IMG/VR virus record: IMGVR_UViG_3300024255_000126
Span: 1-27,376 of that record
Strand: one strand, 5' to 3'
From: a virus
Length of the DNA: 27,376 nucleotides
In this document: positions 1 to 27,376 of the stretch, one piece after another
How the letters are laid out: each line of letters opens with the position of its first letter
Numbering within the stretch: the first letter of the stretch is position 1
Program-made: the position numbers and the translations under genes
Notes under the pieces: model-generated
Seen by the model: the letters and a program-made list of their open reading frames with translations, nothing else
Databases searched by the model: none
What the model was told of the DNA's origin: nothing

Positions 1-2874
1 AGAAGAAAGGGTAAAGCGATCGGCCCGGGTACAAGACAATTAACGGGTTTTTCAGAAACTTGTACAAATATTATTCCGGGATCTTGTGCCGAGATAACAA
101 GTCCAACCGGCCAATGGCAATATGGTAATTGGGATTATGCACAAGGTAACTTATTTTGGTCGCCGTTACAATCCACGGAGGTTGTTACGTTTAAAATAAA
201 GATTATCCCGGGTGGAAACTTTACAAGCACGTTATACGATCTTTCAATTCTTGAAGATTTCAATAGCTCAAATCCCGTTTCATTATCATCATCAACAAAT
301 TTAACCGGGGTAAACGAAATTAGCGTAACGTATAATAATTTTGGGGCCGGTAATACATTTAGCGTTTTTGACGCTTTTAATATTTATGGGAACGTATCTT
401 CATTAAACGATTTTGAGTTTCAAATGCAACCTACGATCGAATGGCAAAAAGAAGATCAATTTGGGATAACAAGAAATTATGCATCGGCGTTTCCGTCGGT
501 ACAAACAAATTTAGATCTTTTAACAGACTTTATTCCAACCGATCAAGTACCTAAGATCAAGGTAATTGAATTTTTAACCGGGTTGTTTAGAATGTTTAAT
601 TTGACGGCTTATGTAGATGATTTTAGCGATGAAATAATTATACAACCATTAGATGAATTTTACGCTTCAAGCACAAAAACTTTCGATCTAACCGATTTAG
701 TAAATTCAAGCGATCACCAAGTAAACGAGGCTTTACCTTTTACCGATATTGAGTTTAAATATAAAGATCCTAAAAGTGTTTTAGCAACCGAATTTAGCGA
801 GATAAATAACCGAAAATACGGCCACCTTAGTTATTCGGCGTCAGCTACAAAAGAACAAAAATACAATATTGAATTACCTTTTGAGAATATGTTATTCGAA
901 AGGTTAAGCGGTTCAAGTACCGGAGGATTTACAGATATTCAACAAGGAACTTATATTACCGACGATCAAAACCCGGCTTTTGGGGCACCAATTTTATTTT
1001 ATATTCATCAAGTAGATATTACAAACGACAAAATCAATTTTGTTAATACTTTTAGGCCACCGGAGGGTGATCCGGTAACACCGGGAACAAACGATGCTTT
1101 GAGTACTGTAATGATACCGAGCAATGCGAGTGAAGTAGGTACATCAACAACGGCCCCGGCTTTTAATATAAATTTCGGATCTGAAATAAATAGCTATACT
1201 TTTACCGATTATAGCGGAAATAATAATTCCTTATTTGATAAGTTTTATGTAAATTATATTAGATCGGTTTTTGATCCACGAAATAGATTATTCAAATTTA
1301 AGGCTCAATTACCTTTAAACTTTTTGTTAAAATTTAAACTACAAGACAAGATTTTAGTAAGGGATCGTGAGTTTCATATAAATTCAATTAACGCTAATTT
1401 ACAAACCGGGCAATCAACTATTGAACTTATAAATCTCTTTGATCTTGATATTAATAATGCGATCCCGATAACGACAACAACCACGACGACGACAACCTCG
1501 ACAACTACGACAACAACCTCAACGACAACAACAACGTTGCCACCTACATTTAATTATAGGGTAATCGAGTTAGACGCGAGTTGTAATCAAACCGGGGATC
1601 CAATAGCTTTACAAAGCAATTCAGCTTTAACAATCGGGCAAATCGTTTCGTTAAACGAGCTTGGTGGTTGTTGGGAAGTTTTAGCGCCAACGGGTGCAAC
1701 GGGCACGGTAACGATAGCGGAAGAATTTATTGATTGTGTTACTTGTCAAGGAAATATCACGACAACAACGACAACCGAGGCCCCTAAATATTATTATATT
1801 GCTCAACAATGTTTTACAACTACGGAATATATTGTTTGGTCTAATCAAACGTCTGAAATAGGCGAAATTATATCCTTTGATTTAAACGGGGTTGAAATTT
1901 GTGCTACGATTATTTCGAATACAACCGAACAAACGCCTAATTATTATTTCGATACTTCGGGTTATGCTAATTGTAATGAGTGTTTAGGGATCACGACAAC
2001 GACAATACCACCCACAACCACCACTTGTATAAGTGGATCTATAGACGGATTTGTTTTTTGGAACGAATTTGAACGTTTTGATAATGGTACTTTTAGTTTA
2101 TATCCGAATAAATTTGCGGTTATGACTATAAGTATTGGTGTAGGTAATGAAAGCGTAAATTGTAGCACGGCCTTTGGTAACTTTCTTTTATCCCTTGTTG
2201 GCGGTGGTAATTCATTAATATTAAACCACGATAACCCACAAAATTACCCGGTACCAATGGCTACCAATGGTTTCGCGGCGAGTTGGGGTAATATAGGTGG
2301 CGATCCGATCGGCAATGATGGATATAAAGAATATGTCTATTATTTAGCCGGTAATCCGTTAGGAGATCCTATAAAGGTTTATAATTGGCAATTAGACTTA
2401 AATCAAAACCCAACCGGTTGCGATGAATATAACGGAAACGCCGATATGTCTGTTGTATGTTATGATTATCCTAATGTGGTAAATTCAAACGCTGATTTCT
2501 TTCAAGCCGTCACGCAATTCGATACGCAAACAAGATCTTTTGAACTTGTAACGGGTACACAATTTTGTAAGCTAAGATTAGTCAGCACCGGGGTTTTAGT
2601 AGGTGCAACCGGGTTTAGTTGGGCTCAATTAACCTATGTTTTACGTAAAGACGGGGTTATTTATCGACAAGGCGTTTTTGAAGTAGATGGGCCTTATGGC
2701 GGTTATGGTAGCGTAAATCAAAAAGAGCAAGATATAATCCTAAATGGGGATCAAGGCGAAGATGGTATTTACGAAATCACAATCGAGTTAGAAATGACAA
2801 CACACCCACTAAATCCACCACCTTACGCAACGGCAAGTTTTGAATTATTTACCCCGGCACCAACTTTAAATTAA
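1..2874 (+). CDS. Large tail/baseplate protein with Thr-rich linkers and Cys modules (5' end outside window)
   Basis: The frame is open from base 1, so the true start lies upstream. At least 957 residues are present, and the first in-frame ATG at 424 is internal. The N-terminal part (about residues 140-480) resembles the tail or baseplate hub-like protein of flavobacterial phages, with a segment around IEFLTGLFRMFNLTAYV. It is followed by three Thr-rich linkers at nt 1471-1533, 1756-1782 and 1990-2030. Between the linkers lie two modules of about 70 residues, each ending in a C-x2-C-x-G motif (CVTCQG, CNECLG). A final domain of about 280 residues, beta-rich by composition, follows. The gene sits 1 nt upstream of a glycosyltransferase and precedes the tape measure. 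A role at the distal tail in host contact is inferred from composition and context. A large minor tail fibre is the alternative. Confidence 0.6.
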   Translation, partial: RRKGKAIGPGTRQLTGFSETCTNIIPGSCAEITSPTGQWQYGNWDYAQGNLFWSPLQSTEVVTFKIKIIPGGNFTSTLYDLSILEDFNSSNPVSLSSSTNLTGVNEISVTYNNFGAGNTFSVFDAFNIYGNVSSLNDFEFQMQPTIEWQKEDQFGITRNYASAFPSVQTNLDLLTDFIPTDQVPKIKVIEFLTGLFRMFNLTAYVDDFSDEIIIQPLDEFYASSTKTFDLTDLVNSSDHQVNEALPFTDIEFKYKDPKSVLATEFSEINNRKYGHLSYSASATKEQKYNIELPFENMLFERLSGSSTGGFTDIQQGTYITDDQNPAFGAPILFYIHQVDITNDKINFVNTFRPPEGDPVTPGTNDALSTVMIPSNASEVGTSTTAPAFNINFGSEINSYTFTDYSGNNNSLFDKFYVNYIRSVFDPRNRLFKFKAQLPLNFLLKFKLQDKILVRDREFHINSINANLQTGQSTIELINLFDLDINNAIPITTTTTTTTTSTTTTTTSTTTTTLPPTFNYRVIELDASCNQTGDPIALQSNSALTIGQIVSLNELGGCWEVLAPTGATGTVTIAEEFIDCVTCQGNITTTTTTEAPKYYYIAQQCFTTTEYIVWSNQTSEIGEIISFDLNGVEICATIISNTTEQTPNYYFDTSGYANCNECLGITTTTIPPTTTTCISGSIDGFVFWNEFERFDNGTFSLYPNKFAVMTISIGVGNESVNCSTAFGNFLLSLVGGGNSLILNHDNPQNYPVPMATNGFAASWGNIGGDPIGNDGYKEYVYYLAGNPLGDPIKVYNWQLDLNQNPTGCDEYNGNADMSVVCYDYPNVVNSNADFFQAVTQFDTQTRSFELVTGTQFCKLRLVSTGVLVGATGFSWAQLTYVLRKDGVIYRQGVFEVDGPYGGYGSVNQKEQDIILNGDQGEDGIYEITIELEMTTHPLNPPPYATASFELFTPAPTLN
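1471..2030 (+). repeat. Thr-linker / Cys-module repeat array inside the tail gene
   Basis: Three stretches of ACN codons encode Thr runs. The first is about 22 residues with two Ser interruptions; the later two are shorter. They separate two related modules. Each module starts with an aromatic-rich strand (FNYRVIEL, KYYYIAQQ), has a central I-G-x-I-(V/I)-S motif, and ends C-x2-C-x-G followed by I-T-T-T-T. The DNA at the second and third linkers shares the stretch ATCACGACAAC. This looks like tandem domain duplication joined by mucin-like linkers. Confidence 0.7.
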
Positions 2875-2875
2875 T

Positions 2876-3802
2876 ATGATATATTTAAGCGCTCAACCCG
2901 ATAGCCTATATTTTGCTTGGCAAGTGGAAACTATGTTAACTAATTTTATTGATAAAGGGATCGATCCGAATAACGTTCACGTTGTGGTTGGATATACGGG
3001 TAATAACGTTAGCAGAGAATTTGTTAAATTAAAAGCTAAACACACGGAAGTTAATTTTGGGTTTATAAAAGATATTAGGCCCTTGAATAATTATATTTCT
3101 TCCGTAAGGCCTTTTATATTAATGAAATATTTTCAGAAGAATTGGCAATTAAAATACAAAACTATTTTTTATCACGATTGCGATATCTTGTTTACAAGGA
3201 AACCGGATCTTAATATTTTTAAAAAAGATGAGGTTTGGTATCAATCGAATACAAACGATTATTTAAATCACAAATACGTTAAATCAAAAGGCGACGATGT
3301 TTTGCAGAAAATGTTAAATATTGCGGAGGTTGAAGAAGATCTATTTAAAAGAAATATGTTTAGCTCGGGTGGGGCTCAAACAATAATGAAAAATGTTGAT
3401 TGGGTTTTTTGGCAAAAGGTTTATATTTTAAGTGAAAAATTATTTACTGAATTAACAGAATTAAACCGACAAAAGGTAAAAGAAGATCCAACGCACCACG
3501 CATTGCAAATTTGGTGCGCTGATATGTGGGCCCTTTTATTTACGGCTTGGAAATTAGGCCACGAAACAAAAGTAGATAAAATGTTAGAATTTACTTGGGC
3601 TACGTGCCCGGTTTCTAAATGGCATAAAAATTTAATTTACCACAACGCCGGAGTTACTCACCAAAACAAGAATTTATTTATGAAGCAAAATTTTACAAAT
3701 AAACTTCCATATTTCGTTAATATAGATATAGATCGAACAAAGGCCAATTCTAAATATTATGATTTAGTAAAAACTTTAGGTAAAAAAACTTGTTTAAAAT
3801 GA
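2876..3802 (+). CDS. GT-A fold glycosyltransferase-like protein
   Basis: The protein has 308 residues. A DxD-type motif lies at residues 101-103 within FYHDCDILF, preceded by a hydrophobic strand. This is the arrangement that binds metal and nucleotide-sugar in GT-A glycosyltransferases. A late HNAGV motif (about residue 256) could supply another active-site His. There is no signal peptide or membrane segment, so the enzyme should be cytoplasmic. The ATG lies 1 nt after the stop of the Thr-rich tail protein, and the stop overlaps the next ATG as ATGA, so it is translationally coupled inside the tail operon. Glycosylation of the adjacent Thr-rich protein is a natural inference. Action on hydroxymethylated DNA or on host surface glycans cannot be excluded. 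The fold call comes from the motif and not from a profile search. Confidence 0.6.
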   Translation: MIYLSAQPDSLYFAWQVETMLTNFIDKGIDPNNVHVVVGYTGNNVSREFVKLKAKHTEVNFGFIKDIRPLNNYISSVRPFILMKYFQKNWQLKYKTIFYHDCDILFTRKPDLNIFKKDEVWYQSNTNDYLNHKYVKSKGDDVLQKMLNIAEVEEDLFKRNMFSSGGAQTIMKNVDWVFWQKVYILSEKLFTELTELNRQKVKEDPTHHALQIWCADMWALLFTAWKLGHETKVDKMLEFTWATCPVSKWHKNLIYHNAGVTHQNKNLFMKQNFTNKLPYFVNIDIDRTKANSKYYDLVKTLGKKTCLK

Positions 3803-3948
3803 TAGCAGATATAATTGAAGCACTAAGATACGATTTTAAAAGCGATAGCGAGTATGTGGCGATTGCAAAAGGAAAAAACAAATTACCAACCACAATAAAA
3901 GAGGGTTATAACGAAATAAAGGAATTATGGCAATCGAAAAAACAATAG
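3799..3948 (+). CDS. Small protein between glycosyltransferase and tape measure (49 aa)
   Basis: The gene encodes 49 residues starting MIADIIEALRYDFKSD and ending in a lysine-rich tail (QSKKQ). Its ATG overlaps the stop of the glycosyltransferase (ATGA), and its last 22 nt overlap the start of the tape measure. The overlaps at both ends and a phage-like codon pattern argue that it is real. Its place just before the tape measure recalls the small tail-assembly chaperones of siphophages, but no family is recognisable and no slippery frameshift signal was noticed. Function unknown. Confidence 0.55.
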   Translation: MIADIIEALRYDFKSDSEYVAIAKGKNKLPTTIKEGYNEIKELWQSKKQ

Positions 3949-6020
3949 ACGTAAATGTAAATTTAGGCGATGCTACTAAGCAACTTGAATTTCTTAATGG
4001 CGAACTTGAAACCGCAAAAGATATTACGGCCGAATGGGAGAAAGAATTATTTGATTTAGAAAAACAATTAAAAGCCGTACCTAAAAATAACCTTGCGCAA
4101 CAAAAGAAATTGCGCGATGAAATTACCAAACAAAAGGATCTTATAAAAGAACAAAAGTTTGCGGTAAAAGATCTAACAAAAGCAAGGGGTAAAGCTAATG
4201 AGGTTGTTAAGAATGCTACTAAAAACCAAGCTGACTATACCGGGGCAACGGGCCTTGCGGATAGGGCAACCGGTGGTTTATTTGGAAGCGTTAAAAACCT
4301 AACCACTTCACTAACCTCGGCAACCAAAGGATTTAATTTTTTAAAGATCGCAATTATTGGATCGGGTATTGGTGCTTTAGCTTTAGGTATCTTGTCTGTT
4401 GTACAAGCTTTCAAAAGATCGGAGGAGGGGCAAAATAAGTTTGCTAAAATAATGGGCGTTATAGGGGCCGTTACGGATCAATTCTTAGATGTATTAGCAA
4501 GTGTTGGGGATAAAATCATAAGTGTATTTTCGGATCCTAAACAAGCGATAATTGATTTGAAAGATCTTATTATTGAAAATATTACAAACAGAATAACCTC
4601 GTTAATTGATACGTTTGGATTTTTAGGAAGCGCAATTAAAAAAGTATTTAGCGGAGATTTTTCCGGGGCCTTAAAAGATGCAAAAAAAGCCGGATCTTCT
4701 TACATAGATACTATGACCGGTGTCAAAAATACGATCGATAAAACTACCGAAGCCGTAAAAGAATTTGCTAAAGAAACTTTAAAGGAGGCAAATCAAGCCG
4801 GTAAGATAGCCGATAGACGCGCAAAAGCGGACAAATTAGAAAGGCAATTACTTGTCGATAGGGCCAAGGCTAATAGGGATATTGCCAAGCTAAGAGAACA
4901 AGCCGAGGATCGTGAAAAGTTTAGCGCCGAAGAACGTATAAAATTTATACAAGAAGCTTCTAAGATTGACGACGATATAACGGCTAAAGAAATTGCAAAA
5001 GTACGTTTAAGAGTACAAGCGAAGAAAGAAGAAAATGCCCTTGGTTTATCTACCAAAGAGGATAAAATGGAACAAGCCCAATTAGAGGCTGAATTGATCG
5101 CTTTAGAAACGCAAAGATTTTCAAAAAAGAGGGCGTTGACGGCAAGAACACAAGCTTTAGTGCGTGAGGCCCAAGCCGAGGAAAATAGAATAGCGCAAGA
5201 GAAAATAAACCTACAAAAACAAATAATTGAAGCGGAGGCAAACACGCTCGATGAAAAAAGGGAATTAGAATTACAAAAGGAGCAAGAAAAATACGATGCT
5301 TTAATTGAACAAGCAAAAGCCAACAACCTAAACACCGATGAACTTGAATTATCAAGGAATGAAAGGTTAGCCGAATTACGACAAGGTTTTGCAGATCAAG
5401 ACGATGCAATTAAGAAAAAATCAGTTGAAGCCCAAGCCAAGTTAGATAAAGAGAAACTTGACAATCAAATAGCTACGATACAAGCCGAAGAAAGCAACAG
5501 ACAATCACAAATACAACAAGTTGGTGGGGCTATAAATAGCTTACAAAGTATATTTAGCGCCTTTGGAGAAGAAAACAAGGCTTTAGCAATAGCCGGGATC
5601 GTTACAGAACAAGTTAGTGCGATCTCTAAGATCATATCTAACACCGCAGTAGCTAATGCAAAGTCGGTCGCGGCGACGCCATTAACGGGTGGTATGCCAT
5701 TTGTTGCGATCAACAATATAACGGCCGGTTTATCAATAGCCGGATCCGTGGCCGGTGCCGTCAAGGCAATCGGAGATCTAAAAAGTAAAAAGAAATCCCC
5801 AAGTAGTGGATCGGCGCCAAGAGGGGCCGGTGGTGGCGGAGGATCAGCCCCGGCAGAAGCGCCACCGTCATTTAATATCGTGGGTGCAAGTGGCACAGAT
5901 CAATTAGCGGAAGCGATCGGAGGGCAAACACAAGCGCCCGTTCAAGCTTATGTAGTATCTAATGACGTTACAAGCGCCCAATCAATGGAACGAAATATAG
6001 TCGAAAATGCAAGTATTTAA
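3927..6020 (+). CDS. Tail tape measure protein
   Basis: The protein has 697 residues and the layout of tape measures. It begins with a charged, coiled-coil N-terminus (about residues 20-95). A Gly-rich hydrophobic segment follows at about 137-162 (IGSGIGALALGILSVV). A long Ala/Glu/Lys/Gln coiled coil spans about 285-540. A second Ala/Gly hydrophobic zone lies at about 545-610, and a Gly/Ser/Pro-rich linker (GAGGGGGSAPAEAPP) leads to the tail. The C-terminal end, VVSNDVTSAQSMERNIVENASI-like, is typical of Bacteroidota phage tape measures. The length would suit a siphovirus tail of roughly 100 nm at 0.15 nm per residue. The ATG lies inside the preceding 49-residue gene. The antisense frames over the coiled coil are shadows of its repetitive codons. 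Confidence 0.85.
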   Translation: MAIEKTIDVNVNLGDATKQLEFLNGELETAKDITAEWEKELFDLEKQLKAVPKNNLAQQKKLRDEITKQKDLIKEQKFAVKDLTKARGKANEVVKNATKNQADYTGATGLADRATGGLFGSVKNLTTSLTSATKGFNFLKIAIIGSGIGALALGILSVVQAFKRSEEGQNKFAKIMGVIGAVTDQFLDVLASVGDKIISVFSDPKQAIIDLKDLIIENITNRITSLIDTFGFLGSAIKKVFSGDFSGALKDAKKAGSSYIDTMTGVKNTIDKTTEAVKEFAKETLKEANQAGKIADRRAKADKLERQLLVDRAKANRDIAKLREQAEDREKFSAEERIKFIQEASKIDDDITAKEIAKVRLRVQAKKEENALGLSTKEDKMEQAQLEAELIALETQRFSKKRALTARTQALVREAQAEENRIAQEKINLQKQIIEAEANTLDEKRELELQKEQEKYDALIEQAKANNLNTDELELSRNERLAELRQGFADQDDAIKKKSVEAQAKLDKEKLDNQIATIQAEESNRQSQIQQVGGAINSLQSIFSAFGEENKALAIAGIVTEQVSAISKIISNTAVANAKSVAATPLTGGMPFVAINNITAGLSIAGSVAGAVKAIGDLKSKKKSPSSGSAPRGAGGGGGSAPAEAPPSFNIVGASGTDQLAEAIGGQTQAPVQAYVVSNDVTSAQSMERNIVENASI

Positions 6021-6040
6021 AAAAAAATCGTTATAAGAAT

Positions 6041-6619
6041 ATGGATATAATAGAATTAATATTAGACGAAGATCAAGACAATTTTGTGGAAGCCATAAGT
6101 GTTGTTGAAAATCCGGCTATAGAGGAGGATTTTGTGGCTCTTAAATCTCAAACATTTAAGTTTGAAAAGCAAGACGAGGAAAAGAAGATCCTTATTGGCC
6201 CAATTTTGATACCTAACAAGCCGATTTACAGACGTTCGGGCAATCGTGAGTATTATATCTACTTTAGTAGAGAAACGGTCAGAAAAGCGTCGCAGTTGTA
6301 TTTAAAACAAAATATGCAACACAATTCGACATTAGAACACCAAATGGCTATAACCGGCTTAACGCTTGTTGAAAGTTGGATTTTAGAAGATAAAGAAAAC
6401 GACAAATCCAATATGTACGGAATGGATCTTCCATTAGGTAGTTGGGTAGGCGCTATAAAAGTTGATAACGACGAAATTTGGAACGATTATGTAAAAACCG
6501 GAAAGGTAAAAGGTTTCAGTATTGAGGGTTATTTCGCTGATAAGGTACAAGCACCCGAGGATAAAGAAGAAGAATTATCAAAGGCTATTATCGGAGAACT
6601 TAAAAACCTATTAAAATAA
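6041..6619 (+). CDS. XkdF-like prohead serine protease
   Basis: The protein has 192 residues and matches the XkdF/prohead-protease pattern throughout: a LIPNKPIYR strand (57-64), YYIYFSRETV (71-80), LEH with H100, the strand LVESWI (109-114), a LPLGSWVGAIKVDNDEIW block (130-147) and GFSIEGYF with S160. His100 and Ser160 are the likely catalytic pair. In this family the enzyme matures the procapsid by cleaving scaffold and capsid N-termini. It lies upstream of an acidic scaffold-like gene and the capsid gene, as expected. It follows the tape measure after a 20-nt A-rich leader that closely resembles the leader of the ParB-like gene at 23383. Confidence 0.85.
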   Translation: MDIIELILDEDQDNFVEAISVVENPAIEEDFVALKSQTFKFEKQDEEKKILIGPILIPNKPIYRRSGNREYYIYFSRETVRKASQLYLKQNMQHNSTLEHQMAITGLTLVESWILEDKENDKSNMYGMDLPLGSWVGAIKVDNDEIWNDYVKTGKVKGFSIEGYFADKVQAPEDKEEELSKAIIGELKNLLK

Positions 6620-6620
6620 A

Positions 6621-7055
6621 ATGGCTTACGAAAACTTTAAAACGCCGAGTAGAACAAGCCCGAGGAACGGCCGACGTGGTTGCTTATGCGAGAACAATAC
6701 ATACCACGTGGATTGTTGCGACGGATCGTTACAAGCCCAAGGGATCGGAAACATTTATGGGATGCCACATTTATTAACCGAATTTGGTGATGATCTTTTA
6801 CAAGAAAATTTTGGCTTAATAGGGATTGAGGGTGTTCCACCATACATTCCACCACCTTTGACAGAAGAAGAACAAGCGATTATTGATGCTGAAATAGAGG
6901 CAGAGAGAATAGAACGAGTTGATAATTGTTTTATGTCAAATCAAGATAGTAATAGTGGGCCGGATTACGCTAAACAAGAGGCTTATAAAATTGAAAGAAA
7001 TCTAAATAATTTACCTAACAACAGTAGTTATTCAGACTATTGTAGAACAATTTAA
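6621..7055 (+). CDS. Conserved phage protein with Cys-rich CDGSLQAQGIG motif
   Basis: This is a 144-residue protein starting 1 nt after the protease stop. Near the N-terminus it has a Cys cluster (C-L-C, then D-C-C-D-G) followed by GSLQAQGIG. I associate this motif with structural-region proteins of Bacteroidota phages, but no function is assigned to it. The middle is Pro-rich (PPYIPPPLTEEE), then charged and helical, and it ends YSDYCRTI. The Cys cluster could bind metal or form disulfides in the virion. Its place between the protease and the fibre-like gene suggests a virion or assembly role. Confidence 0.6.
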   Translation: MAYENFKTPSRTSPRNGRRGCLCENNTYHVDCCDGSLQAQGIGNIYGMPHLLTEFGDDLLQENFGLIGIEGVPPYIPPPLTEEEQAIIDAEIEAERIERVDNCFMSNQDSNSGPDYAKQEAYKIERNLNNLPNNSSYSDYCRTI

Positions 7056-10041: not shown

Positions 10042-10419
10042 ATGATAGTAGTTAACGCGACAGACAACACCCCAACAATAACGATATTACCAAAAATTAA
10101 CGTTCCGGCTTTTGTAGACGGGATTGGTGGGTATTATTTAGAATTTATTGATGATGAAACCCAAGAGGTTTTTATATTCGGCAATGGCGATGTGTTTGAG
10201 ATTAATGGGGATTTTTTCCAAATTGATATAAACAATAGCAATGGAGATTTAAAGGCCGAAAAATATTACACTATGCGAATGAAACGAAGCGCAAACGATT
10301 ATGTGGTGTACCGGGATAAAGCATTTGTAACAAGCCAAACCCAAGCGGTAAAATACAATAACAACCAAGATCAATATAAGGAAGCCGATACCGGCAATAA
10401 TGATTACATTTTATTATGA
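10042..10419 (+). CDS. Hypothetical structural-region protein (125 aa)
   Basis: The protein has 125 residues, rich in beta-prone sequence with a repeated FIFGNGDVFEINGDFFQID pattern and an Asn/Asp/Gln-rich C-terminus ending NNDYILL. No family recognised. It is the first gene after a terminator, and its stop overlaps the portal start (ATGA), so it is coupled to the portal gene. A 109-nt gap precedes it that also contains the previous terminator. No clear TAnnTTTG box was found in this gap, although some promoter is expected there. Confidence 0.6.
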   Translation: MIVVNATDNTPTITILPKINVPAFVDGIGGYYLEFIDDETQEVFIFGNGDVFEINGDFFQIDINNSNGDLKAEKYYTMRMKRSANDYVVYRDKAFVTSQTQAVKYNNNQDQYKEADTGNNDYILL

Positions 10420-12242
10420 AAAAAAAATCAACTAAAAGCGCAATTAATATTGTAAATCTTAACAATTACAATTCGCCGGATATTCAAGTTAATAAACAAA
10501 AAGATTGGGTAACGTTTGGCGACAAAAATGCGTATTTCAAATACCTTATAGATCGTTATAGTGGATCGCCAACTAATAACGCTATTGTAAACGGGGTTTC
10601 TCAAATGATTTATGGGAAAGGGATCGATGCAACTGACAATAATTTGTTCCCAAACGAATATGCACAAGCCGTAACGTTATTAAATAAAGAATGCGTTAGG
10701 AAGCTTACATACGATCTAAAACTAATGGGCCAATGCGCAATTCAAGTGATTTATTCTAAAGATCGCAAGAATATAGCCCAAGTTGAGCATATGCCGGTTG
10801 AAACCTTGGCAATGGAGAAATGTAACGACAAAGGCGAAATTGAAGCTTATTATTATTTCCCGGATTGGTCGGCAATTAAACCGACTGACAAGCCAATAAG
10901 AATACCGGCTTTCGGATCAAGTAAAGAAGCGATCGAAATACTTTATGTTAGGCCTTATGTAGCCGGTCATTATTATTTTAGCCCGGTTGATTATCAAGGT
11001 GGTTTACAATATGCAGAACTTGAAGAAGAAATAGCTAACTATCACTTAAACAACATATTAAACGGCTTGGCGCCGTCTATGTTAATTAATTTTAACAATG
11101 GGGTGCCGAATGAGGAACAAAGGGCCCAAATAGAAAGATCAATTAAAGATAAATATTCCGGATCTTCAAACGCCGGGCGCTTTATCCTAAGTTTTAATGA
11201 AAATGCCGATACAGAAAGTAGTATTGAAGCGATCCAACTAAGTGACGCTCATAATCAATACCAATTCTTATCAGATGAAAGTATGCGTAAAATAATGGTT
11301 TCACACCGTATCGTATCGCCAATGCTTTTAGGTATTAAGGATCAATCCGGCCTTGGTAATAACGCCGATGAACTAAAAACGGCTTCAATATTAATGGATA
11401 ACACGGTAATAAGGCCCTTTCAAGAGCTTTTATTAGACGCCTTTGATAAAATCCTTGCATTTAACGGAATAACGCTTAATTTATACTTTAAAACGCTTCA
11501 GCCACTCGAATTTGTTGAAATAGATACTGAAATTGTAGATGAAGAAACGATTGAGGAAGAAACCGGGGTTGAACAATTATCTGCAGATCCAAACGAGGCT
11601 TACCAATTAGGCGAAGATGATACGCAAGTGCTTTTAGGTAGTTTAAAGGCCGATGAAATGACCGAAGAATGGGAGTTTGTAGACAAAAGAGATCATAACG
11701 ACAGTATGATGAGCCACGAAGATTGGGCAACAATTTGTATTGAGCCAAAAGAGAATTTATTCACTGAATTAGCCGGTAAAGTAATACCGCAAAACAAACA
11801 AAAGAACGAAAATACATTTAGTTATTTAGATAAATCCTTTTATCGTGTAAGATATCGTTATAAAGAAACAATCCCGAGCGACAATTCAAGAACTTTTTGT
11901 AAGGAAATGATGAAGCGAATTGGATCTGACGGGAAACCGGCCGTGTACAGAATTGAAGATATTGACACCGCAAGTAAAAAAGGGGTTAATCAAAAGTTTG
12001 GGCACCAAGGAAAACCATACGATTTGTTTCGTTGGAAAGGTGGGCCCTACTGCCACCATATTTGGGAAGCGGTATTATACCGATTGAAGAACAAAACTAA
12101 ACCAAGTAAGTATTTAAAGAACTACCAAGAAACCGGATCCATACCGAAAACCTATCAACCAACACCATACGGGCACAAAGACGCAAAAATTGCCCCGGTC
12201 GATATGGAAAACGGCGGTCATCACCCTAATTGGAACAAATAA
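10416..12242 (+). CDS. Portal protein with extra C-terminal Cys/His domain
   Basis: The protein has 608 residues. The first part matches Bacteroidota-phage portals: YFKYLIDRYSGSPTNNAIVNGVSQMIYGKG near the N-terminus, a crown/stem region with YAELEEEIANYHLNNILNGLAPSM, and SHRIVSPMLLGIKDQSGLGNNADELKTA before the clip-like end. From about residue 380 an acidic linker leads to a separate domain (about 468-575). This domain holds C495 (RTFCKEMM), a YRIEDID helix, and a KGGPYCHHIWE motif with C546, H547 and H548. It resembles the C-terminal part of MuF-type minor head proteins, so this could be a portal/minor-head fusion. The portal forms the 12-mer DNA channel. Confidence 0.8.
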   Translation: MKKKSTKSAINIVNLNNYNSPDIQVNKQKDWVTFGDKNAYFKYLIDRYSGSPTNNAIVNGVSQMIYGKGIDATDNNLFPNEYAQAVTLLNKECVRKLTYDLKLMGQCAIQVIYSKDRKNIAQVEHMPVETLAMEKCNDKGEIEAYYYFPDWSAIKPTDKPIRIPAFGSSKEAIEILYVRPYVAGHYYFSPVDYQGGLQYAELEEEIANYHLNNILNGLAPSMLINFNNGVPNEEQRAQIERSIKDKYSGSSNAGRFILSFNENADTESSIEAIQLSDAHNQYQFLSDESMRKIMVSHRIVSPMLLGIKDQSGLGNNADELKTASILMDNTVIRPFQELLLDAFDKILAFNGITLNLYFKTLQPLEFVEIDTEIVDEETIEEETGVEQLSADPNEAYQLGEDDTQVLLGSLKADEMTEEWEFVDKRDHNDSMMSHEDWATICIEPKENLFTELAGKVIPQNKQKNENTFSYLDKSFYRVRYRYKETIPSDNSRTFCKEMMKRIGSDGKPAVYRIEDIDTASKKGVNQKFGHQGKPYDLFRWKGGPYCHHIWEAVLYRLKNKTKPSKYLKNYQETGSIPKTYQPTPYGHKDAKIAPVDMENGGHHPNWNK

Positions 12243-20651: not shown

Positions 20652-21096
20652 ATTTGAAAAAGCTTTTGTAGGGTTTTTAAACACTTTCGATAATTGGGAA
20701 TTGAAATGGGTTGGGGATCAGAATTTATGCTATGACGCGATCGGTAAAACCCCGAAAGGTAATGATTGTGTAATTGAAATGAAATTCAGAAAGAAATATT
20801 ATGATACCAAAATGCTTGAAAAGTCGAAATATGAAAGCTTAATGGCCGTCAAAGATCGCGTAAAGATCTATTTTGTTTCCGATCCTAAGGGCAGTTATTG
20901 GTTTTGGTTAGATAAACTTACCGAAATGAATGTGATAAATAAAAAATGCCCGGCCACGTCTTATTGGGGAAAGGGCCGGATCAATAAAGAAGTTTATTTA
21001 TTAGAAGAAAGTCAAGCTTCTGTTGTTGATTACACGTCAGAAGATCGGCCCCCAAGTGTTTGGGAAAGCTATTTTGCTAAGAAAGATGAAAAATAG
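20626..21096 (+). CDS. PD-(D/E)XK nuclease-like protein 2
   Basis: The protein has 156 residues. D37 (NLCYDAIG) and E51-M-K53 (CVIEMKFRKKYYDTKMLEKSK) give the D...ExK core of Holliday-junction-resolvase-like and related nucleases. The strand VKIYFVSDPKGSYWFWLDKL follows. A role in resolving branched DNA or trimming ends in recombination is plausible. It overlaps the preceding gene by 26 nt and is the last gene of its unit before promoter element copy C. Confidence 0.5.
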   Translation: MKKITATNKFEKAFVGFLNTFDNWELKWVGDQNLCYDAIGKTPKGNDCVIEMKFRKKYYDTKMLEKSKYESLMAVKDRVKIYFVSDPKGSYWFWLDKLTEMNVINKKCPATSYWGKGRINKEVYLLEESQASVVDYTSEDRPPSVWESYFAKKDEK

Positions 21097-21149
21097 TTAT
21101 CAAATTTTTTTGATAATTGATATATTAGTTATAATTTAGCGGTATAAAC
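21097..21149 (+). promoter_or_regulatory. Promoter-like element, copy C, with palindrome on the -33 box
   Basis: A perfect inverted repeat, TTATCAAA-TTTT-TTTGATAA (21097-21116), contains the -33-like TTTG ending at 21112. After 19 nt comes TAATTTAG (21132-21139) and then TATAAAC (21143-21149), 23 nt before the ATG at 21173. It shares the TTATCAA, TAnnTTA and TATAAAC blocks with copies A and B and has the best -33/-7 spacing of the three. The palindrome suggests repressor or activator control. Confidence 0.55.
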
Positions 21150-21172
21150 AATAAATCTTAAAATTTTTAATT

Positions 21173-21448
21173 ATGAATTATCCAACTTTATTCGAATTAC
21201 TTAGGCCCGAACAATTAGCAAACTACTACGAAGCAAAACTACAATACCCGTCGATTGCCGAAAATCTTTTTAACGCTTTGACAACGAAAAATTTTGTAGG
21301 CCAACTATCTTTAAACGATTGTACCAATATTTGCGCTTGTTGTGGTGTGTCTTATTTGTTCAATTATTCTACTATCCACGATTGTTTTTATACTTATAAA
21401 GTTATAGACGGGAAAGCGGTTATAGATATAACTAAACCGGCAAAGTGA
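21173..21448 (+). CDS. Hypothetical early protein with Cys cluster (91 aa)
   Basis: The protein has 91 residues. A helical first half (FELLRPEQLANYYEAKLQYPS) is followed by LSLNDCTNICACCGVSYLFNY, in which four Cys (C-x3-C-x-C-C) could bind zinc. It has no recognised family. It is the first gene after promoter element copy C. Its stop overlaps the GTG start of the next gene (GTGA). Confidence 0.55.
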   Translation: MNYPTLFELLRPEQLANYYEAKLQYPSIAENLFNALTTKNFVGQLSLNDCTNICACCGVSYLFNYSTIHDCFYTYKVIDGKAVIDITKPAK

Positions 21449-21759
21449 ATAAGAAAATTAATAATCTAAAGGATCTCGAATATTTCGGGGCCTTTACATA
21501 TTGTGCCGAAACGGTATTAAAGTGGGAGAAGCTTAAACCGGATAACCCCGAGATAAAAGAGTTTGCCCGATCGATCGCAGTTGTATTTTTTTATGTAAAC
21601 GAGATCCAAAACGATCGACTTATGTACGATAAAGCAATAAGCGAATATAGAGCCGATAAAAACCGGGCCGTATTAAGGGCCCGTAAATCGGAAGACGAGG
21701 TTAAGAAACTAACCGAAGAATTAAATAAACTTAAAAAATTAACAAATCTAAATTTATGA
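21445..21759 (+). CDS. Hypothetical coiled-coil protein with GTG start (104 aa)
   Basis: The protein has 104 residues. It starts at GTG in a GTGA overlap with the preceding stop, so translational coupling explains the weak start. The N-terminal half is a mixed helix region (YFGAFTYCAETVLKWEKLKP). The C-terminal half is a charged coiled coil (ARKSEDEVKKLTEELNKLKK). No family recognised. Confidence 0.55.
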   Translation: MNKKINNLKDLEYFGAFTYCAETVLKWEKLKPDNPEIKEFARSIAVVFFYVNEIQNDRLMYDKAISEYRADKNRAVLRARKSEDEVKKLTEELNKLKKLTNLNL

Positions 21760-21911
21760 AAACTATTAAACAATTATCAACCGGCTTGTGGTGTTGCATA
21801 GATAACAAGGGCCGTGTATCTGTTTACACAAACGAAGAATATCAATCCATAACACACGAGATATGGTTTAAATCAATAATCAAAAAATTCTTTAGCGATG
21901 AACGTAAATAG
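21756..21911 (+). CDS. Small protein (51 aa)
   Basis: The gene encodes 51 residues, starting MKTIKQLSTGLWCCIDNKGR and ending IKKFFSDERK. It has a short beta-hairpin-like stretch (WCCIDNKGRVSVYT) and a basic C-terminal helix. It overlaps the preceding stop (ATGA) and overlaps the next gene by 14 nt, which supports it as a real gene. Function unknown. Confidence 0.5.
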   Translation: MKTIKQLSTGLWCCIDNKGRVSVYTNEEYQSITHEIWFKSIIKKFFSDERK

Positions 21912-22161
21912 CCTATACTACATAATAGAAACGTACCTAAACGGAAATAAAAGCCACGCAAGGGGTTATCTAAATAAGATCCGTTATACCAAGCCCGAAA
22001 TAATTAACGCTTGTAACTTGTTCGGAATGAAACCGGCTTTAGAAACGCTAACCCAATTAGGGGTGGATCGCTTATATTTAGTAAACGCTTTCCACGATTA
22101 CCAAAGAGAAAATATAGAGGAAGCGAAAACAATTATAAATAATTACAAACTTAAAAATTAA
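21898..22161 (+). CDS. Hypothetical helical protein (87 aa)
   Basis: This 87-residue, almost all-helical protein has the segments SLYYIIETYLNGNKSHARGYL, KPEIINACNLFG and VNAFHDYQREN. No motif points to a function. It starts inside the preceding small gene and ends 4 nt before the RecE-like exonuclease, so the two are probably co-translated. Confidence 0.55.
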   Translation: MNVNSLYYIIETYLNGNKSHARGYLNKIRYTKPEIINACNLFGMKPALETLTQLGVDRLYLVNAFHDYQRENIEEAKTIINNYKLKN

Positions 22162-22165
22162 CAAA

Positions 22166-22942
22166 ATGAATATCCAATTATTAGACGGCTCAAAAGAGCC
22201 ACAAAAAGATCTGTTGGCAAAAATGTACGACGATCATTATTATTACGGAGAATTAAACCAAAAGGCTTTAAGCAGTAGCAGTATAAAATTGCTTGTTGAT
22301 AGCCCGAAGAAATATTACTTTGTTCAAAAATACGGATCCGGGGAAAGCCAAGGAATGCGCGACGGAAGATTATTACATACTTTAGTTTTAGAGCCGGAGA
22401 AATTCGAGCAATTTAATTTTGTAGAGGTTGCAAGTAAAAATAGCAAGGCTTATAAAGAAGCCAAGGCCGAACACGGGGTGGTTTATACTTCAAAGGAACG
22501 ATCCGATGCAGAACGATTAGCCGATGCGTTATTAAGAAACGAAAAAGCAACACAAATATTGCAAGGGGCCGAGTTTGAGAAGCCTATTATCGGACATATC
22601 AACGGCCACGCCTTTAGGGGTAAAGCGGATATTGTAACACAATACGGTGGTATTTGCGACATCAAAACGACAACCGACATAAAAGCCTTTAAATATAGCG
22701 CTAACAAATACGGGTATGATCTACAATGTTATATCTATTGTCAGCTATTCGATATAAACTTTAGAAACTTTCAATTTCTTGTGCTTGATAAAGCGAGTTT
22801 AGATATTGGGGTGTTCGATGTATCGGAAGAATTTTACCTAAGGGGCAAAGCTAAAACCGAATTAGGGATCCAACGATACGAAGAATGGTTTATGAATAAA
22901 GAAGCCGATTTAGATAACTATTACATAGAAGATATTTTATAA
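22166..22942 (+). CDS. RecE/exonuclease VIII-like PD-(D/E)XK exonuclease
   Basis: The protein has 258 residues with the full set of RecE/lambda-exonuclease-like motifs: H71 (GRLLHTLVLEPEKF), E138 (EFEKPI), D155 (RGKADIV), D165-I-K167 (GICDIKTT) and Q187 in YDLQCYIYC. These enzymes degrade one strand of linear double-stranded DNA 5' to 3', leaving 3' tails for an annealing protein. The annealase candidate at 17288 and SSB-tip protein at 17694 would complete the system. It lies 4 nt after the preceding gene and 1 nt before the DnaA-like gene. Confidence 0.8.
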   Translation: MNIQLLDGSKEPQKDLLAKMYDDHYYYGELNQKALSSSSIKLLVDSPKKYYFVQKYGSGESQGMRDGRLLHTLVLEPEKFEQFNFVEVASKNSKAYKEAKAEHGVVYTSKERSDAERLADALLRNEKATQILQGAEFEKPIIGHINGHAFRGKADIVTQYGGICDIKTTTDIKAFKYSANKYGYDLQCYIYCQLFDINFRNFQFLVLDKASLDIGVFDVSEEFYLRGKAKTELGIQRYEEWFMNKEADLDNYYIEDIL

Positions 22943-22943
22943 T

Positions 22944-23354
22944 ATGAAACAATTAAAAGAAATAGCCGTAAAGATAAACCGATTAGCGGAGTTGGATATA
23001 TTTAACAATACAAGGAAACGGGAGTACATTGAGGCCCGTTCCTTGTTTTGTCTTATTGCTTATAGATATTGCAATGCAAATTATTCTCGAATAGCCGAGT
23101 TTTTAATATCAAACGGAAAATCAAGCGATCATTCGACAATATTACATTCAATTAAAAATTATGAAATTTATAAGATCTATAATAAAAATCTTGACATTTG
23201 GTTGGAAGATGTTATTGAGAATTTACAAAACCTTGAAAGTAATCAAAAGGTACAATTAGTAACACATAAATTAAATCAATTAACCGATCCCGGTTTAGAT
23301 CTAATAAACGAATTTGTTTCAAAGATCCACGGGGCCGAAGAATATCATAAATAA
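22944..23354 (+). CDS. DnaA domain IV-like DNA-binding protein
   Basis: The protein has 136 residues. Its middle (about 28-74), with ARSLFCLIAYRYCNANYSRIAEFL then SSDHSTILHSIKNYE, follows the DnaA C-terminal signature. In that signature R-x-x-A-x-Y helices are followed by (R/K)DHxTVLHAxxK. The DnaA AAA+ ATPase domain is absent. It probably binds origin-like DNA or modulates replication starts. The C-terminal 60 residues are charged and helical. The assignment rests on the DHSTILHS motif and its spacing to the first helix. Confidence 0.65.
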   Translation: MKQLKEIAVKINRLAELDIFNNTRKREYIEARSLFCLIAYRYCNANYSRIAEFLISNGKSSDHSTILHSIKNYEIYKIYNKNLDIWLEDVIENLQNLESNQKVQLVTHKLNQLTDPGLDLINEFVSKIHGAEEYHK

Positions 23355-23382
23355 AATAATTAATAAAAATCGTTATACAAAT

Positions 23383-23979
23383 ATGAAAACACAAAAAATC
23401 TCAATTCGTAAAGTAAAAACAAATCCTCAAAACCCGAGGATCATTAAAGATTATAAATTTAAGAAGCTTGTCAATAGTATTCAACAATTCCCTAAAATGC
23501 TCGAAATTAGGCCTATCGTTGTTAATTCTGATATGATTGTTTTGGGTGGTAATATGCGCTTAAAAGCTTCAGAAGAAGCCGGGTTGAAAGAAGTTTGGGT
23601 AACCCAAGTTGATGATCTAACACCCGAGCAACAACAAGAGTTTATCATAAAAGATAATTCAAGCTTTGGGGAATGGGATTGGGATATACTCGCAAACGAA
23701 TGGAACACCGAAGATCTAAAGTCTTGGGGCCTTGATGTTCCAAAATGGGAAGACGTTTCATTTGATACTGAAATAGAAGATACCGGGGAATATGATTACC
23801 CGGAAGATAATGTAAAAGGATCTCACGTTAAAATGGTTCAATTATTTCTTGATACAGATACCGAGCCTAATTTTAGAAAGTGGGAAGAATTTCTTCGAAC
23901 GATCTTTAAAACAGATAACCTAACAGACACGATCTACAAGGCGGTTGAAAAAATGTATAATGATGAAAACAAAAGTTAA
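23383..23979 (+). CDS. ParB/Srx-like nuclease-domain protein next to the TET/JBP gene
   Basis: The protein is 198 residues long counted from the ATG at 23383, which follows a leader nearly identical to that of the protease gene at 6041. An upstream in-frame extension is rejected because it runs through the previous gene. The ParB-like fold is seen in NPQNPRII (14-21), IRPIVVNSDMIVLGGNMRLKA (42-62, with the GGNMR motif) and EFIIKDNSSFGEWDWDILANEW (86-107). In many phages this domain is joined to DNA methyltransferases; here none follows. It ends with a segment of about 50 residues, VKMVQLFLDTDTEPNF and on. It overlaps the dioxygenase by 20 nt. It may guide or regulate the modification enzymes. 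Confidence 0.8.
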   Translation: MKTQKISIRKVKTNPQNPRIIKDYKFKKLVNSIQQFPKMLEIRPIVVNSDMIVLGGNMRLKASEEAGLKEVWVTQVDDLTPEQQQEFIIKDNSSFGEWDWDILANEWNTEDLKSWGLDVPKWEDVSFDTEIEDTGEYDYPEDNVKGSHVKMVQLFLDTDTEPNFRKWEEFLRTIFKTDNLTDTIYKAVEKMYNDENKS

Positions 23980-24868
23980 AGAACACAGATTAAAAGAAAG
24001 ATTAACAGACGAACAAGCCCGTAAATTAGCCGGAACTTTATTAGATGAAACCGACTACAATTTATTAGTTACTTATGATGCTGATATTTATTGCGAGAAA
24101 ACCGGCCAATGTATAGCCAAGTTTAGGAAGAAAGTTATCCCGGGTAATATTGCCAAAGATGCATTTGAAAATCTAAAAGGCGCTTCAACGCCTACAAACA
24201 ATAGACCATTTTCCGGTGGCGAGTTTGATGAAAAAGGACATACAACCCATTATAGGGTAAAGAAAGACGGCACCCGATCACAAACCAACCAAGCCTTGAC
24301 AAGTGTTAATTCGGGTATAATTGGTTATTTCGATCGGAACGCAAGATTTCCGTATTGCAGACAAACGGCCTTTAATGAAAAACAATTTAGCAAGTTTAAA
24401 AAAGCCTATCCAATAATTAACTTTGTTGATAAAGCTTACGCGAAACTAATGCCAAAACATTATGCATTGCAAAGGGCCGAGGCTGATAAAACCTCGCAAG
24501 ATTTTGTTATTAAAAATACCGCTTTTACCACGGTGACGGTCAATTCAAATTGGCAGACGGCCGTACATACCGACGCCGGTGATTTTGAAAAGGGTTTTGG
24601 AAACCTTGTTGCTTTAAGATCCGGGCGTTATACCGGAGGTTATTTCGTTGTTCCGAAATGGGGCGTTGCTTTCGATCTTCAACAATGCGATCTTCTTTTA
24701 GTTGATGTACACCAATGGCACGGCAACACGCCAATAAACAAAATAGATGAAGATGCAAAAAGGGTAAGCCTTGTAATGTACTATCGTAAAAATATGATTA
24801 GTTGCGGATCGGCTAAAGAGGAAATGGATATTGTTAAACGCCGAAAAAAAGGTACACACTTAAATTAA
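23960..24868 (+). CDS. TET/JBP-family 2-oxoglutarate/Fe(II) DNA base dioxygenase
   Basis: The protein is 302 residues long counted from the ATG at 23960 (a second ATG lies at 23963). The jelly-roll core carries H203-x-D205 (TAVHTDAGD), a distal His in DVHQWHGN (H254, with H251 nearby) for iron, and R268 (KRVSLVMYYR) for 2-oxoglutarate. The surrounding pattern matches the phage branch of the TET/JBP family: VNSGIIGYFDR (116-126), RQTAFNEKQF (134-143), TAFTTVTVNSNW (187-198), and GNLVALRSGRYTGGYFVVPKWGVAFDL (214-240). Members oxidise the 5-methyl group of thymine (JBP) or 5-methylcytosine (TET) in DNA. The neighbours favour thymine. The gene shares one base with the next ATG. Confidence 0.85.
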   Translation: MMKTKVKEHRLKERLTDEQARKLAGTLLDETDYNLLVTYDADIYCEKTGQCIAKFRKKVIPGNIAKDAFENLKGASTPTNNRPFSGGEFDEKGHTTHYRVKKDGTRSQTNQALTSVNSGIIGYFDRNARFPYCRQTAFNEKQFSKFKKAYPIINFVDKAYAKLMPKHYALQRAEADKTSQDFVIKNTAFTTVTVNSNWQTAVHTDAGDFEKGFGNLVALRSGRYTGGYFVVPKWGVAFDLQQCDLLLVDVHQWHGNTPINKIDEDAKRVSLVMYYRKNMISCGSAKEEMDIVKRRKKGTHLN

Positions 24869-25590
24869 TGGATTTATCATTTAGAGAATTTTCAGAAAAC
24901 ATTATTCAATCGGGTGACATAGATCCGGATTACATTTTGATCCGAGAAAAATGCGAGGAACTTGGTTGGGATAAAAAGCAAATGTTTAATTGGATCTTAC
25001 ACAAGCTTGTAATTTACGATAGTTATTCAGAATTGGAAGTGATATTGAAACGTAAAAACATATTTGATGTTAAGTACGGAACGGAACGCCGTAAATCAAA
25101 ACGATTTGCGCAAGATTATTTAAACAATATCCAAAGGGCTTTTATATTTACCGACGTGGAGAAGTTTTTCAGCCGTGACGGAAATGTTGTTTTCAATCAA
25201 ATAAAAACAATCAAAGGTTTTGGATCTTGGGCAAGTTGGAAATTTATGGATCTAATGAGTTGTTGTTACGGGCTTGACGTTGATTTTAATGGGATCGACT
25301 TTCGTGAAGCTTATACGTTTCCGCTAAAGGGCCTATTGATGATCCACGGGTACCCGGAAGATGTTAGGCTACTCAAAGATACGAAGCTTTATAATAAGCT
25401 AATTACAAGCACCCACGATATGTTAAGCGGTTTGGAAGATCTAAAAGCACCACACAATAACAACAAAGGCTTAAGGATCCAAGAAGTTGAAACCTTGTTA
25501 TGTAAATACCACTCTTATAAACACAATAAATATAAACCGGGCCAAGATCTTATTCACTTGGCGAAACGTGGTAAGGAATGTATAATATAG
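24868..25590 (+). CDS. alpha-glutamyl/putrescinyl-thymine pyrophosphorylase-like protein (aGPT-Pplase family)
   Basis: The protein has 240 residues. A helical N-terminus (EFSENIIQSGDIDPDYILIRE) leads to a helix-hairpin-helix-like core, IKTIKGFGSWASWKFMDLM (112-130). This is followed by GLDVDFNGIDFREAY and a C-terminal ETLLCKYHSYKHNKYKPGQD (208-227). I match this to the family that transfers an amino acid or amine onto phosphorylated 5-hydroxymethyluracil in DNA, known from phages phiW-14, SP10, ViI and M6. The location between a TET/JBP enzyme and a hydroxymethyl-U kinase type protein supports it. It overlaps the next gene by 13 nt. A generic HhH DNA glycosylase relative is the alternative. 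Confidence 0.7.
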   Translation: MDLSFREFSENIIQSGDIDPDYILIREKCEELGWDKKQMFNWILHKLVIYDSYSELEVILKRKNIFDVKYGTERRKSKRFAQDYLNNIQRAFIFTDVEKFFSRDGNVVFNQIKTIKGFGSWASWKFMDLMSCCYGLDVDFNGIDFREAYTFPLKGLLMIHGYPEDVRLLKDTKLYNKLITSTHDMLSGLEDLKAPHNNNKGLRIQEVETLLCKYHSYKHNKYKPGQDLIHLAKRGKECII

Positions 25591-26366
25591 TTGGGGCCGG
25601 GCTTTGCGGAAGTATGTTAGCTAAAGAGTTTGATAACCTCGGTATTGAATACCGGATCTTTGACGCAAAATTACCATTTAGCGCTTCAATTATTTCAGAG
25701 AATTTATTTAGCGATACTTGGTTGAAAGACGTTTCATACATAAAACAATCTTTAGATTTCATACACGACAATTACGAGGTTGAAAAGAGATTATTCGTTG
25801 GGCCTACAACCCAAAAAGAATTATATCATTTGCCGATACCAAATGTGTTGAGGTTTGATTATATCCAAGAGGAAGTGTTAGAAGCCACAAAAGAGGGCGT
25901 TAGAACGCATAACGGGTTTTATAAGGGCCGGAATATCATTTGCGCGGGTTTCCTCGCTAAAAAGCTATTTAAATTGCCTTATTTAGATGCATTGACCGGT
26001 CACGGGTTTTATATTAAGAAGCAAGTAATAAAAGATTACATAAATACCTACCGGCCTTATACTCACGAAAAAATAATGAATTGGCACGATGGTTTGATTT
26101 GGTACGGAGATAGCACCGCGATACGCCACAACAATTATATGAAAAAAAGAAAGGATTATATTCAGCGAAGTTTGGAAAGGCTAAAAGGCCACGGCCTTGA
26201 ATATGAGAAGATCGTTTATGGATCCCGGCCAATGAATATTAAAAATCCTAAAGAGGGGTTGTTAGTAAAGATTAATGAAAACAATATTATAATCAATGGC
26301 GGTTGGAAAGACGGGTTGGTTATTTATCCATACCTAATAAAAAAACTACACAAATGGCTAAAGTAA
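25578..26366 (+). CDS. FAD-dependent oxidoreductase/lyase of the DNA hypermodification cluster
   Basis: The protein has 262 residues. The N-terminus is a Rossmann FAD-binding motif: IVGAGLCGSM with G6-x-G8-x2-G11, and the ribose-binding acid D29 in YRIFDAK. The C-terminus (about 240-260, INGGWKDGLVIYPYLIKKL) is the second FAD-contacting part typical of D-amino-acid-oxidase-like proteins. NIICAG and WYGDSTAIR fit the same fold. Flavin-dependent lyases act on amino-acid-modified thymidines in phage hypermodification pathways, so this enzyme probably trims or oxidises the appended amino acid. It overlaps both neighbours by 13 nt. Confidence 0.75.
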   Translation: MYNIVGAGLCGSMLAKEFDNLGIEYRIFDAKLPFSASIISENLFSDTWLKDVSYIKQSLDFIHDNYEVEKRLFVGPTTQKELYHLPIPNVLRFDYIQEEVLEATKEGVRTHNGFYKGRNIICAGFLAKKLFKLPYLDALTGHGFYIKKQVIKDYINTYRPYTHEKIMNWHDGLIWYGDSTAIRHNNYMKKRKDYIQRSLERLKGHGLEYEKIVYGSRPMNIKNPKEGLLVKINENNIIINGGWKDGLVIYPYLIKKLHKWLK

Positions 26367-26866
26367 TTGCGATAGGCGGTGTTCCGGCAACCGGGAAAAC
26401 AAGTATGATGCGAGAAATCATAAAACACCATATGCCTTTAACAACATTTAAATACAAATTGGTAAGGGGTTTATACAATAGAAAAACAAACGTTTATATT
26501 ATAGGGATCTATGACAATTCGTTATTTAGCGGAACGGATAAATTAAGTATGGCGGTACAACCGGATTTTATCAAGCTTGTACAAATGGAGCCACGCGGTA
26601 CATTTATATTTGAGGGAGATCGATTATTCAATCGAAGCTTATTTCAAAAAGTAGATTGCGAGATTTTTGTTTTAGATGCTGATCAAGATCTAATTCACAA
26701 AAGACATATTGATCGAGAAGATACCCAAACGGATCAATTCAAGAAATCGAAACGAACAAAGATCCAAAATATATTAGTAAGCCATAAGGTTACGATCCTA
26801 ACAAATAATACAAAAGAGGAAGCACAAGAAAACTTAAAAACAATATTAAACGAGATAGAAAAATGA
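26354..26866 (+). CDS. P-loop kinase, likely 5-hydroxymethyluracil DNA kinase
   Basis: The protein is 170 residues long counted from the ATG at 26354; an in-frame extension upstream lies within the FAD gene and is rejected. Walker A is GVPATGKTS (9-17) just after the first strand. A strand with FEGDRLF resembles the catalytic acid region of small nucleotide or sugar kinases. The C-terminal half has VLDADQDLIHKRHIDRED and basic helices as a lid. In phages making hypermodified thymidine, such kinases phosphorylate 5-hydroxymethyl-dU in DNA, activating it for amino-acid transfer. The aGPT-Pplase-like neighbour supports this role. Its stop overlaps the small terminase start (ATGA). Confidence 0.7.
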   Translation: MAKVIAIGGVPATGKTSMMREIIKHHMPLTTFKYKLVRGLYNRKTNVYIIGIYDNSLFSGTDKLSMAVQPDFIKLVQMEPRGTFIFEGDRLFNRSLFQKVDCEIFVLDADQDLIHKRHIDREDTQTDQFKKSKRTKIQNILVSHKVTILTNNTKEEAQENLKTILNEIEK

Positions 26867-27216
26867 ACAAAACCGAACACACTAAAAAAGCGTTATTACA
26901 AGCGCTTGAAAAATCATTAGGCGTTGTAACCTCGGCGTGTAGAAAAATAGGCGTGGGCCGTACTACATATTATGATTGGTATAATTCCGATCCGGAGTTT
27001 AAGAAGAAAGTTGACGATCTACAAAACGTTGCTTTGGATATGGCAGAAAGCCAATTACACAAACAGATCCTTGGCGATAGTACAACGGCCACTATATTTT
27101 ACCTAAAAACAAAAGGAAAGAATAGGGGCTATGTTGAAAGAACGGAACATACCGGGATTGAGGGCACAAAATTATTTGAAATAGAAATTGTAAAAAGAAG
27201 TGACGAAGAAGATTAG
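26863..27216 (+). CDS. Small terminase subunit (HTH type)
   Basis: The protein has 117 residues. The N-terminal helix-turn-helix (ALLQALEKSLGVVTSACRKI, GVGRTTYYDWYNSDPEFKKKV) and LKTKGKNRGYVERTEHTG near the C-terminus match the small terminase of many Bacteroidota phages. It recognises phage DNA and hands it to the large subunit. It is joined to the kinase by ATGA and overlaps the large terminase start by 17 nt, so modification and packaging genes share one unit. Confidence 0.75.
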   Translation: MNKTEHTKKALLQALEKSLGVVTSACRKIGVGRTTYYDWYNSDPEFKKKVDDLQNVALDMAESQLHKQILGDSTTATIFYLKTKGKNRGYVERTEHTGIEGTKLFEIEIVKRSDEED

Positions 27217-27376
27217 AACAAATATCGTTTACGAGCACTTACAAAATAGCGATAAAAAGATCGTTGTTGAACAAGGCGGTACAAGATCCGGTAAAACGTA
27301 TAACGTGCTTTTATGGATCCTTGGCGATTATTGTAACAACAATACGGATAAAACAATTACGATCGTTAGGAAAACG
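27200..27376 (+). CDS. Large terminase subunit, N-terminal part (3' end outside window)
   Basis: The first 59 codons are seen. They are read from a GTG at 27200, the only plausible start in this frame and inside the small terminase end. The sequence VTKKIRTNIVYEHLQNSDKK is followed by VVEQGGTRSGKTYNVLLWIL, with the Walker A motif GGTRSGKT of packaging ATPases, and the strand ITIVRKT. The frame is open to the window end. The large terminase drives DNA into the capsid and cuts it. The missing part should hold Walker B and the RNase H-like nuclease. Confidence 0.8.
   Translation, partial: MTKKIRTNIVYEHLQNSDKKIVVEQGGTRSGKTYNVLLWILGDYCNNNTDKTITIVRKT

Follow-up and report, generated by a model that had tools for sequence, protein, structure and literature searches.

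Loss of restriction-like words and surplus of GATC, CCGG and GGCC in a phage genome with a predicted thymine-hypermodification cassette

Gene content and the modification cassette

The window analyzed here is the whole of virus record IMGVR_UViG_3300024255_000126 (27,376 nucleotides), about 27 kb of a genome of ~34 kb, the full size being inferred from the related contig L006. It belongs to a marine tailed phage that probably infects Flavobacteriaceae. The portal protein (positions 10416–12242, + strand) served as the query for collecting relatives. In the first large open reading frame (1–2874), runs of threonine (TTTTTTTTTTSTTTTTTSTTTTTLPP and similar) apparently separate small domains.

A cassette of five genes on the + strand is anchored beside the packaging genes. 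The first encodes a ParB-like protein (23314–23979) that matches the N-terminal part of ParB–methyltransferase fusions, with the methyltransferase domain missing. It is followed by a TET/JBP 2-oxoglutarate/Fe dioxygenase (23945–24868; PF12851, E 1.2e-28), in which H208, D210, H256/H259 and R273, the residues of an HxD...H...R motif, are invariant among relatives. Next come ADDT, an amino acid:DNA transferase (24868–25590; PF18724), and a protein of no assigned family matching phrog_16743 (25578–26366), whose first residues, MYNIVGAGLCGSMLAKEFD, resemble a dinucleotide-binding fold that may be FAD-dependent. The fifth gene encodes a P-loop kinase (26303–26866) with the Walker A motif GVPATGKTS and a weak match to Ploopntkinase3, a candidate for the kinase of hydroxymethyl-uracil in DNA. 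The terminase small subunit (26863–27216, + strand) closes the series.

The dioxygenase thus has ADDT and, by a weak match, a kinase as partners, with no cytosine methyltransferase found. A search for DNA methyltransferase domains gave none in the window's open reading frames or in the counterpart, in L006, of the missing part of the genome, and a phage methyltransferase protecting GATC, CCGG and GGCC is rejected over the same range. Because no such enzyme was found, thymine is a likelier substrate of the dioxygenase than 5mC. The part of the genome present in L006 and missing from the window also holds a gene for a glycosyltransferase of family 29 (sialyltransferase-like; L006:11951–12493); in the Pfam scan one sequence of the set hit PF00777, and the open reading frame was assigned by its sequence. 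Relatives keep the cassette order, but in many of them the middle differs. There, as at L007:6600–8465 and similar loci, the stretch from TET to kinase encodes a glutamine-amidotransferase-like protein, a GNAT acetyltransferase and a longer, full-length ADDT, which suggests that the same base ends up with another modification.

Surplus and lost words in the window

GATC occurs 232 times, CCGG 143 times and GGCC 106 times in the 27.4-kb window. These surplus words form one part of a genome-wide, strandless signature (1–27376). The first-pass annotation had tallied about 230 GATC and 140 CCGG, in agreement with these counts, and had called for Markov and codon-shuffled nulls; GATC and CCGG lie above all nulls tried. 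Base composition predicts 87–90 GATC, 27 CCGG and 27 GGCC, the corresponding figures for a dinucleotide chain are 67, 65 and 54, and for a trinucleotide chain 131, 112 and 84. A codon-preserving shuffle of the coding part, in which synonymous codons are permuted while proteins and codon usage are kept, gives 95.4 GATC compared to 216 observed (z 17), 48.8 CCGG compared to 139 (z 17) and 38.8 GGCC compared to 103 (z 11.5), with all three reading frames enriched for each word. GATC does arise at synonymous choices, as had been proposed, and its number lies above a codon-aware null. The 2.5 kb of non-coding DNA contains 16 GATC where 6.1 are expected, and this result together with the shuffle rules out codon usage alone as the cause of the excess. 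GATC sites are randomly spaced (CV 0.98) and evenly distributed along the whole window. Apart from avoidance of TGATCA, no longer context around GATC was detected in the window, and a longer motif containing GATC is ruled out. TGATCA occurs once and TATATA never, despite plentiful GATC; a BclI-like site is seemingly avoided.

The other part of the signature consists of lost words. CATG, CAGG/CCTG, CCAG/CTGG, GANTC, GAAGG/CCTTC, CAATTG and TATATA do not occur anywhere in the window (1–27376, strandless), and over the same range CTAG is found once, GCNGC twice, GCNNGC once, GGATG/CATCC twice and TGATCA once. CATG, CTAG, CAGG, CCAG, GANTC and GAAGG are each at or below 10% of expectation. Compared to the codon-preserving null, the lost words are at zero in every frame for which it predicts any, and in non-coding DNA they are likewise absent or almost so; the loss is frame-independent, as for avoidance at the DNA level. 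Most of them are recognized by known restriction enzymes (NlaIII, BfaI, HinfI, Hin4II, MfeI, Fnu4HI, Cac8I and FokI), and the asymmetric 4-mers CAGG and CCAG have no common Type II enzyme that we know of. In sum, about a dozen restriction-like words of 4–6 bases have been purged on a large scale despite the predicted thymine-hypermodification cassette. The earlier picture of a palindrome excess was therefore real for GATC and CCGG but incomplete, since it missed the loss of CATG, CAGG/CCTG, CCAG/CTGG, GANTC, GAAGG and CAATTG and the near-loss of CTAG.

The codon junctions C|ATG and C|TGG are not observed, compared to 17 and 19 expected in the codon-preserving shuffle. The T in these Met and Trp codons allows no silent change, so their absence points to selection and not to mutation bias of modified T, and context-dependent mutation of modified T is unlikely.

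Displacement, conservation and relatives

Losing words pushes synonymous choice onto others, and a Gibbs-sampled synonymous-codon model, in which lost words are forbidden and codon usage is refitted, gives the size of this effect. The expected number rises from 48 to 107 for CCGG, from 42 to 61 for GGCC and from 98 to 119 for GATC. The surplus of CCGG thereby shrinks from 2.9-fold to ~1.25-fold. For GATC, adding 19 further depleted words plus CATC/GATG brings the expectation to 128. In the main model versions 118–128 GATC are expected compared to 216 observed (z 11–15), which leaves a 1.7- to 1.8-fold surplus, and the purge alone is therefore insufficient to explain the GATC excess. By this modelling the purge accounts for about two thirds of the surplus of CCGG, about a third of that of GGCC and between a fifth and a quarter of that of GATC. 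The residual, about 1.7-fold direct preference for GATC is real and is conserved among lineage members. Its cleanest remainder is G|ATC in frame 3, where an Ile codon following G is ATC (71 observed, ~23 expected); the codon model revealed no forbidden synonymous neighbor that explains the frame-3 sites. As CCGG illustrates, a palindrome can seem enriched largely as the shadow of words lost elsewhere, and this matters for anyone inferring function from enriched words.

An explanation of the whole excess by forbidden words, including some as yet unlisted, is unlikely. It gains from the reduction of CCGG to ~1.25-fold under the known forbidden words, but it is weakened by the GATC surplus that persists after imposing the lost words and 20 further depleted word families, and even with the other xATC words also fixed the model expects 150 GATC, leaving 1.44-fold.

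The same signature is present in L004 and L062 (99.2–99.96% identical to the window), in L006 (92%) and, over 4 kb, in L005 (97%), and the zeros of the lost words recur in independent contigs of the window lineage. An artefact of assembly or of reading modified bases can be dismissed: modified bases can be misread, but several further metagenome data sets yielded contigs with the same words, synonymous changes within intact genes account for their gain and loss, and the non-coding part agrees. Between the window and its relatives L006 (92% identical) and L063 (88%), GATC is conserved at 0.828 compared to 0.712 for words of equal GC content, which places it at the top of its class (binomial p 0.002), and CCGG at 0.875 compared to 0.735 overall. 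Where a third-position G precedes ATC, it is retained in 24 of 25 cases, compared to 282 of 370 elsewhere. Existing GATC and CCGG are thus kept between lineage members above other words, and forbidden one-base neighbors must account for part of this conservation.

Of 67 non-redundant relatives, 49 have eliminated CATG, 11 CCAG and 7 CAGG; among those testable, GGCC is eliminated in 25 of 41 and CCGG in 7 of 15. GATC is eliminated in 18 of the 67 by distribution count, or in 17 of the 65 with at least ten expected. The GATC ratio across relatives runs from 0 to 3.7 and exceeds 2.2 only in the window lineage. A milder excess (1.5–2.1 in the codon null) is seen in L007, L045, L075, L104, L020 and L050–L053. 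Within one cassette type the ratio spans 0.3 to 3.7 and within the other 0 to 2.1, a spread that rules out GATC as a marker of cassette type. In relatives that do not avoid GATC, the ratio correlates negatively with GACC (rho –0.48) and with CATC (rho –0.44), with p uncorrected for 135 words. CAGG and CCAG have each been eliminated independently in several marine phage lineages (the window, L013, L034, L049, L065, L091, L115 and L120). Loss of one accompanies a rise of the other: L013 has no CAGG and 119 CCAG for 65 expected, and L049 has no CCAG and 151 CAGG for 89 expected.

Origin of the signature and relation to known systems

The GATC excess changes quickly and is specific to the lineage, a signature superimposed on restriction avoidance. 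The reading that we favor, and consider reasonably probable, is that a restriction-driven purge mainly shapes the words, that the CCGG, GGCC and GATC surpluses are partly displaced, and that an extra, direct preference for GATC is added. With restriction-like words forbidden, synonymous choice is pushed onto the remaining words. GATC, CCGG and GGCC would be safe words in the window lineage if its hosts do not cut them, whereas many relatives would have to avoid them. Many of their one-base neighbors (GACC, GGTC and GATG; CCAG, CTGG and CCTG) are depleted or forbidden and would help hold these words in place, and the GATC surplus that remains reflects the further direct preference of about 1.7-fold.

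The first-pass annotation had offered three meanings for the palindromes. Freedom from restriction through base modification fares badly: restriction-like words are strongly eliminated, so the GATC excess is no sign of such freedom, and GATC, CCGG or GGCC has been eliminated from relatives whose cassette is of the same kind. Restriction-site avoidance is usually read word by word, and the window lineage loses about a dozen words together. That these include the asymmetric CAGG and CCAG, despite the hypermodification cassette, suggests that modification need not replace avoidance. The cassette probably adds a second layer of protection that is incomplete; hypermodified T does not keep phage DNA from slow or partial cutting by certain frequent cutters, among them NlaIII, FatI, Sau3AI and MboI (PMC6449724).

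A host-wide signature, in which a particular host favors GATC and the phage follows, would suit the enrichment in all frames and the mildly GATC-rich relatives listed above. At family level it does not stand: for 16 pieces from the family group of a Flavobacteriaceae metagenome-assembled genome (MAG) the GATC ratio averages 0.82 and reaches 1.30 at most, so that the family as a whole does not share the excess. The words also shift between closely related phages (L055, L007), and we regard this explanation as improbable. The scan of named bacterial genomes with the TET protein gave no relative. The portal scan gave four, one of them 71% identical and located in a Flavobacteriaceae MAG (L142). 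This relative, the best hint of a host, has a different purge, with GATC 0, CATG 0 and CCAG 1.

The third meaning, palindromes as enzyme targets, would make GATC the site at which the phage modifies its thymine, or at which a later kinase or ADDT step acts, with more hypermodified T protecting or compacting the genome. In its favor, the window carries a seemingly intact cassette, GATC is under conservation, the lack of a detected phage methyltransferase makes thymine the likelier TET substrate, and GATC fits the type of resistant site in known hypermodified phages, which is rich in T before G or C (PMC6449724). However, no phage methyltransferase that would use the palindromes was found, and L055, whose TET fragment shares 90% identity with that of the window, has 4 GATC where 8 are expected and 24 CCAG where 10 are expected, the opposite of the window. 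L008, L009 and L013 share the cassette type (ADDT plus second protein) and have GATC at 0.3–0.5 of expectation, many other carriers of the cassette avoid GATC completely, and neither CCGG nor GGCC contains a T. We judge this explanation decidedly improbable, and give still less credence to its stronger form, in which GATC would be positively selected as such a target, synonymous codon choice would write protective sites into the genome and the preferred word may differ from lineage to lineage.

The Nonlabens (Persicivirga) phages P12024L and P12024S (L060 and L061; NC_018272 and NC_018271), sister phages of one host, have a capsid related to that of the window (34% identity). The TET protein of P12024L is 42% identical to the window's and lies beside a TET-associated glycosyltransferase and an N6/N4 methyltransferase; in P12024S this block is replaced by an ATPase/acetyltransferase gene. 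Unlike in the window, GATC is near expectation in the two phages (67 for 82 and 72 for 83), and CCGG and GGCC are avoided in both. P12024L, with TET, and P12024S, without it, have the same word signature, which also speaks against GATC as a target of modification, although the pair is very similar and the test is weak.

Phages M6, ViI and phiW-14 (PMC6449724) share with the window the route to modified T, through a kinase and amino-acid transfer, that is predicted here. They differ in that they use a 5hmdUTP pool, whereas the window's TET/JBP protein would hydroxylate T in DNA.

Elimination of sites, defined in a survey as a compositional bias below 0.1, is typical of orthodox Type II sites and was found for 7.1% of Type II sites and <0.5% of those of other types (PMC6286503). 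The window resembles these cases as a dsDNA phage that has near-totally lost the Type II-like words CATG, CTAG and GANTC. It differs from them in having lost many motifs at once, two of them asymmetric 4-mers, and in overshooting the spared palindromes GATC, CCGG and GGCC.
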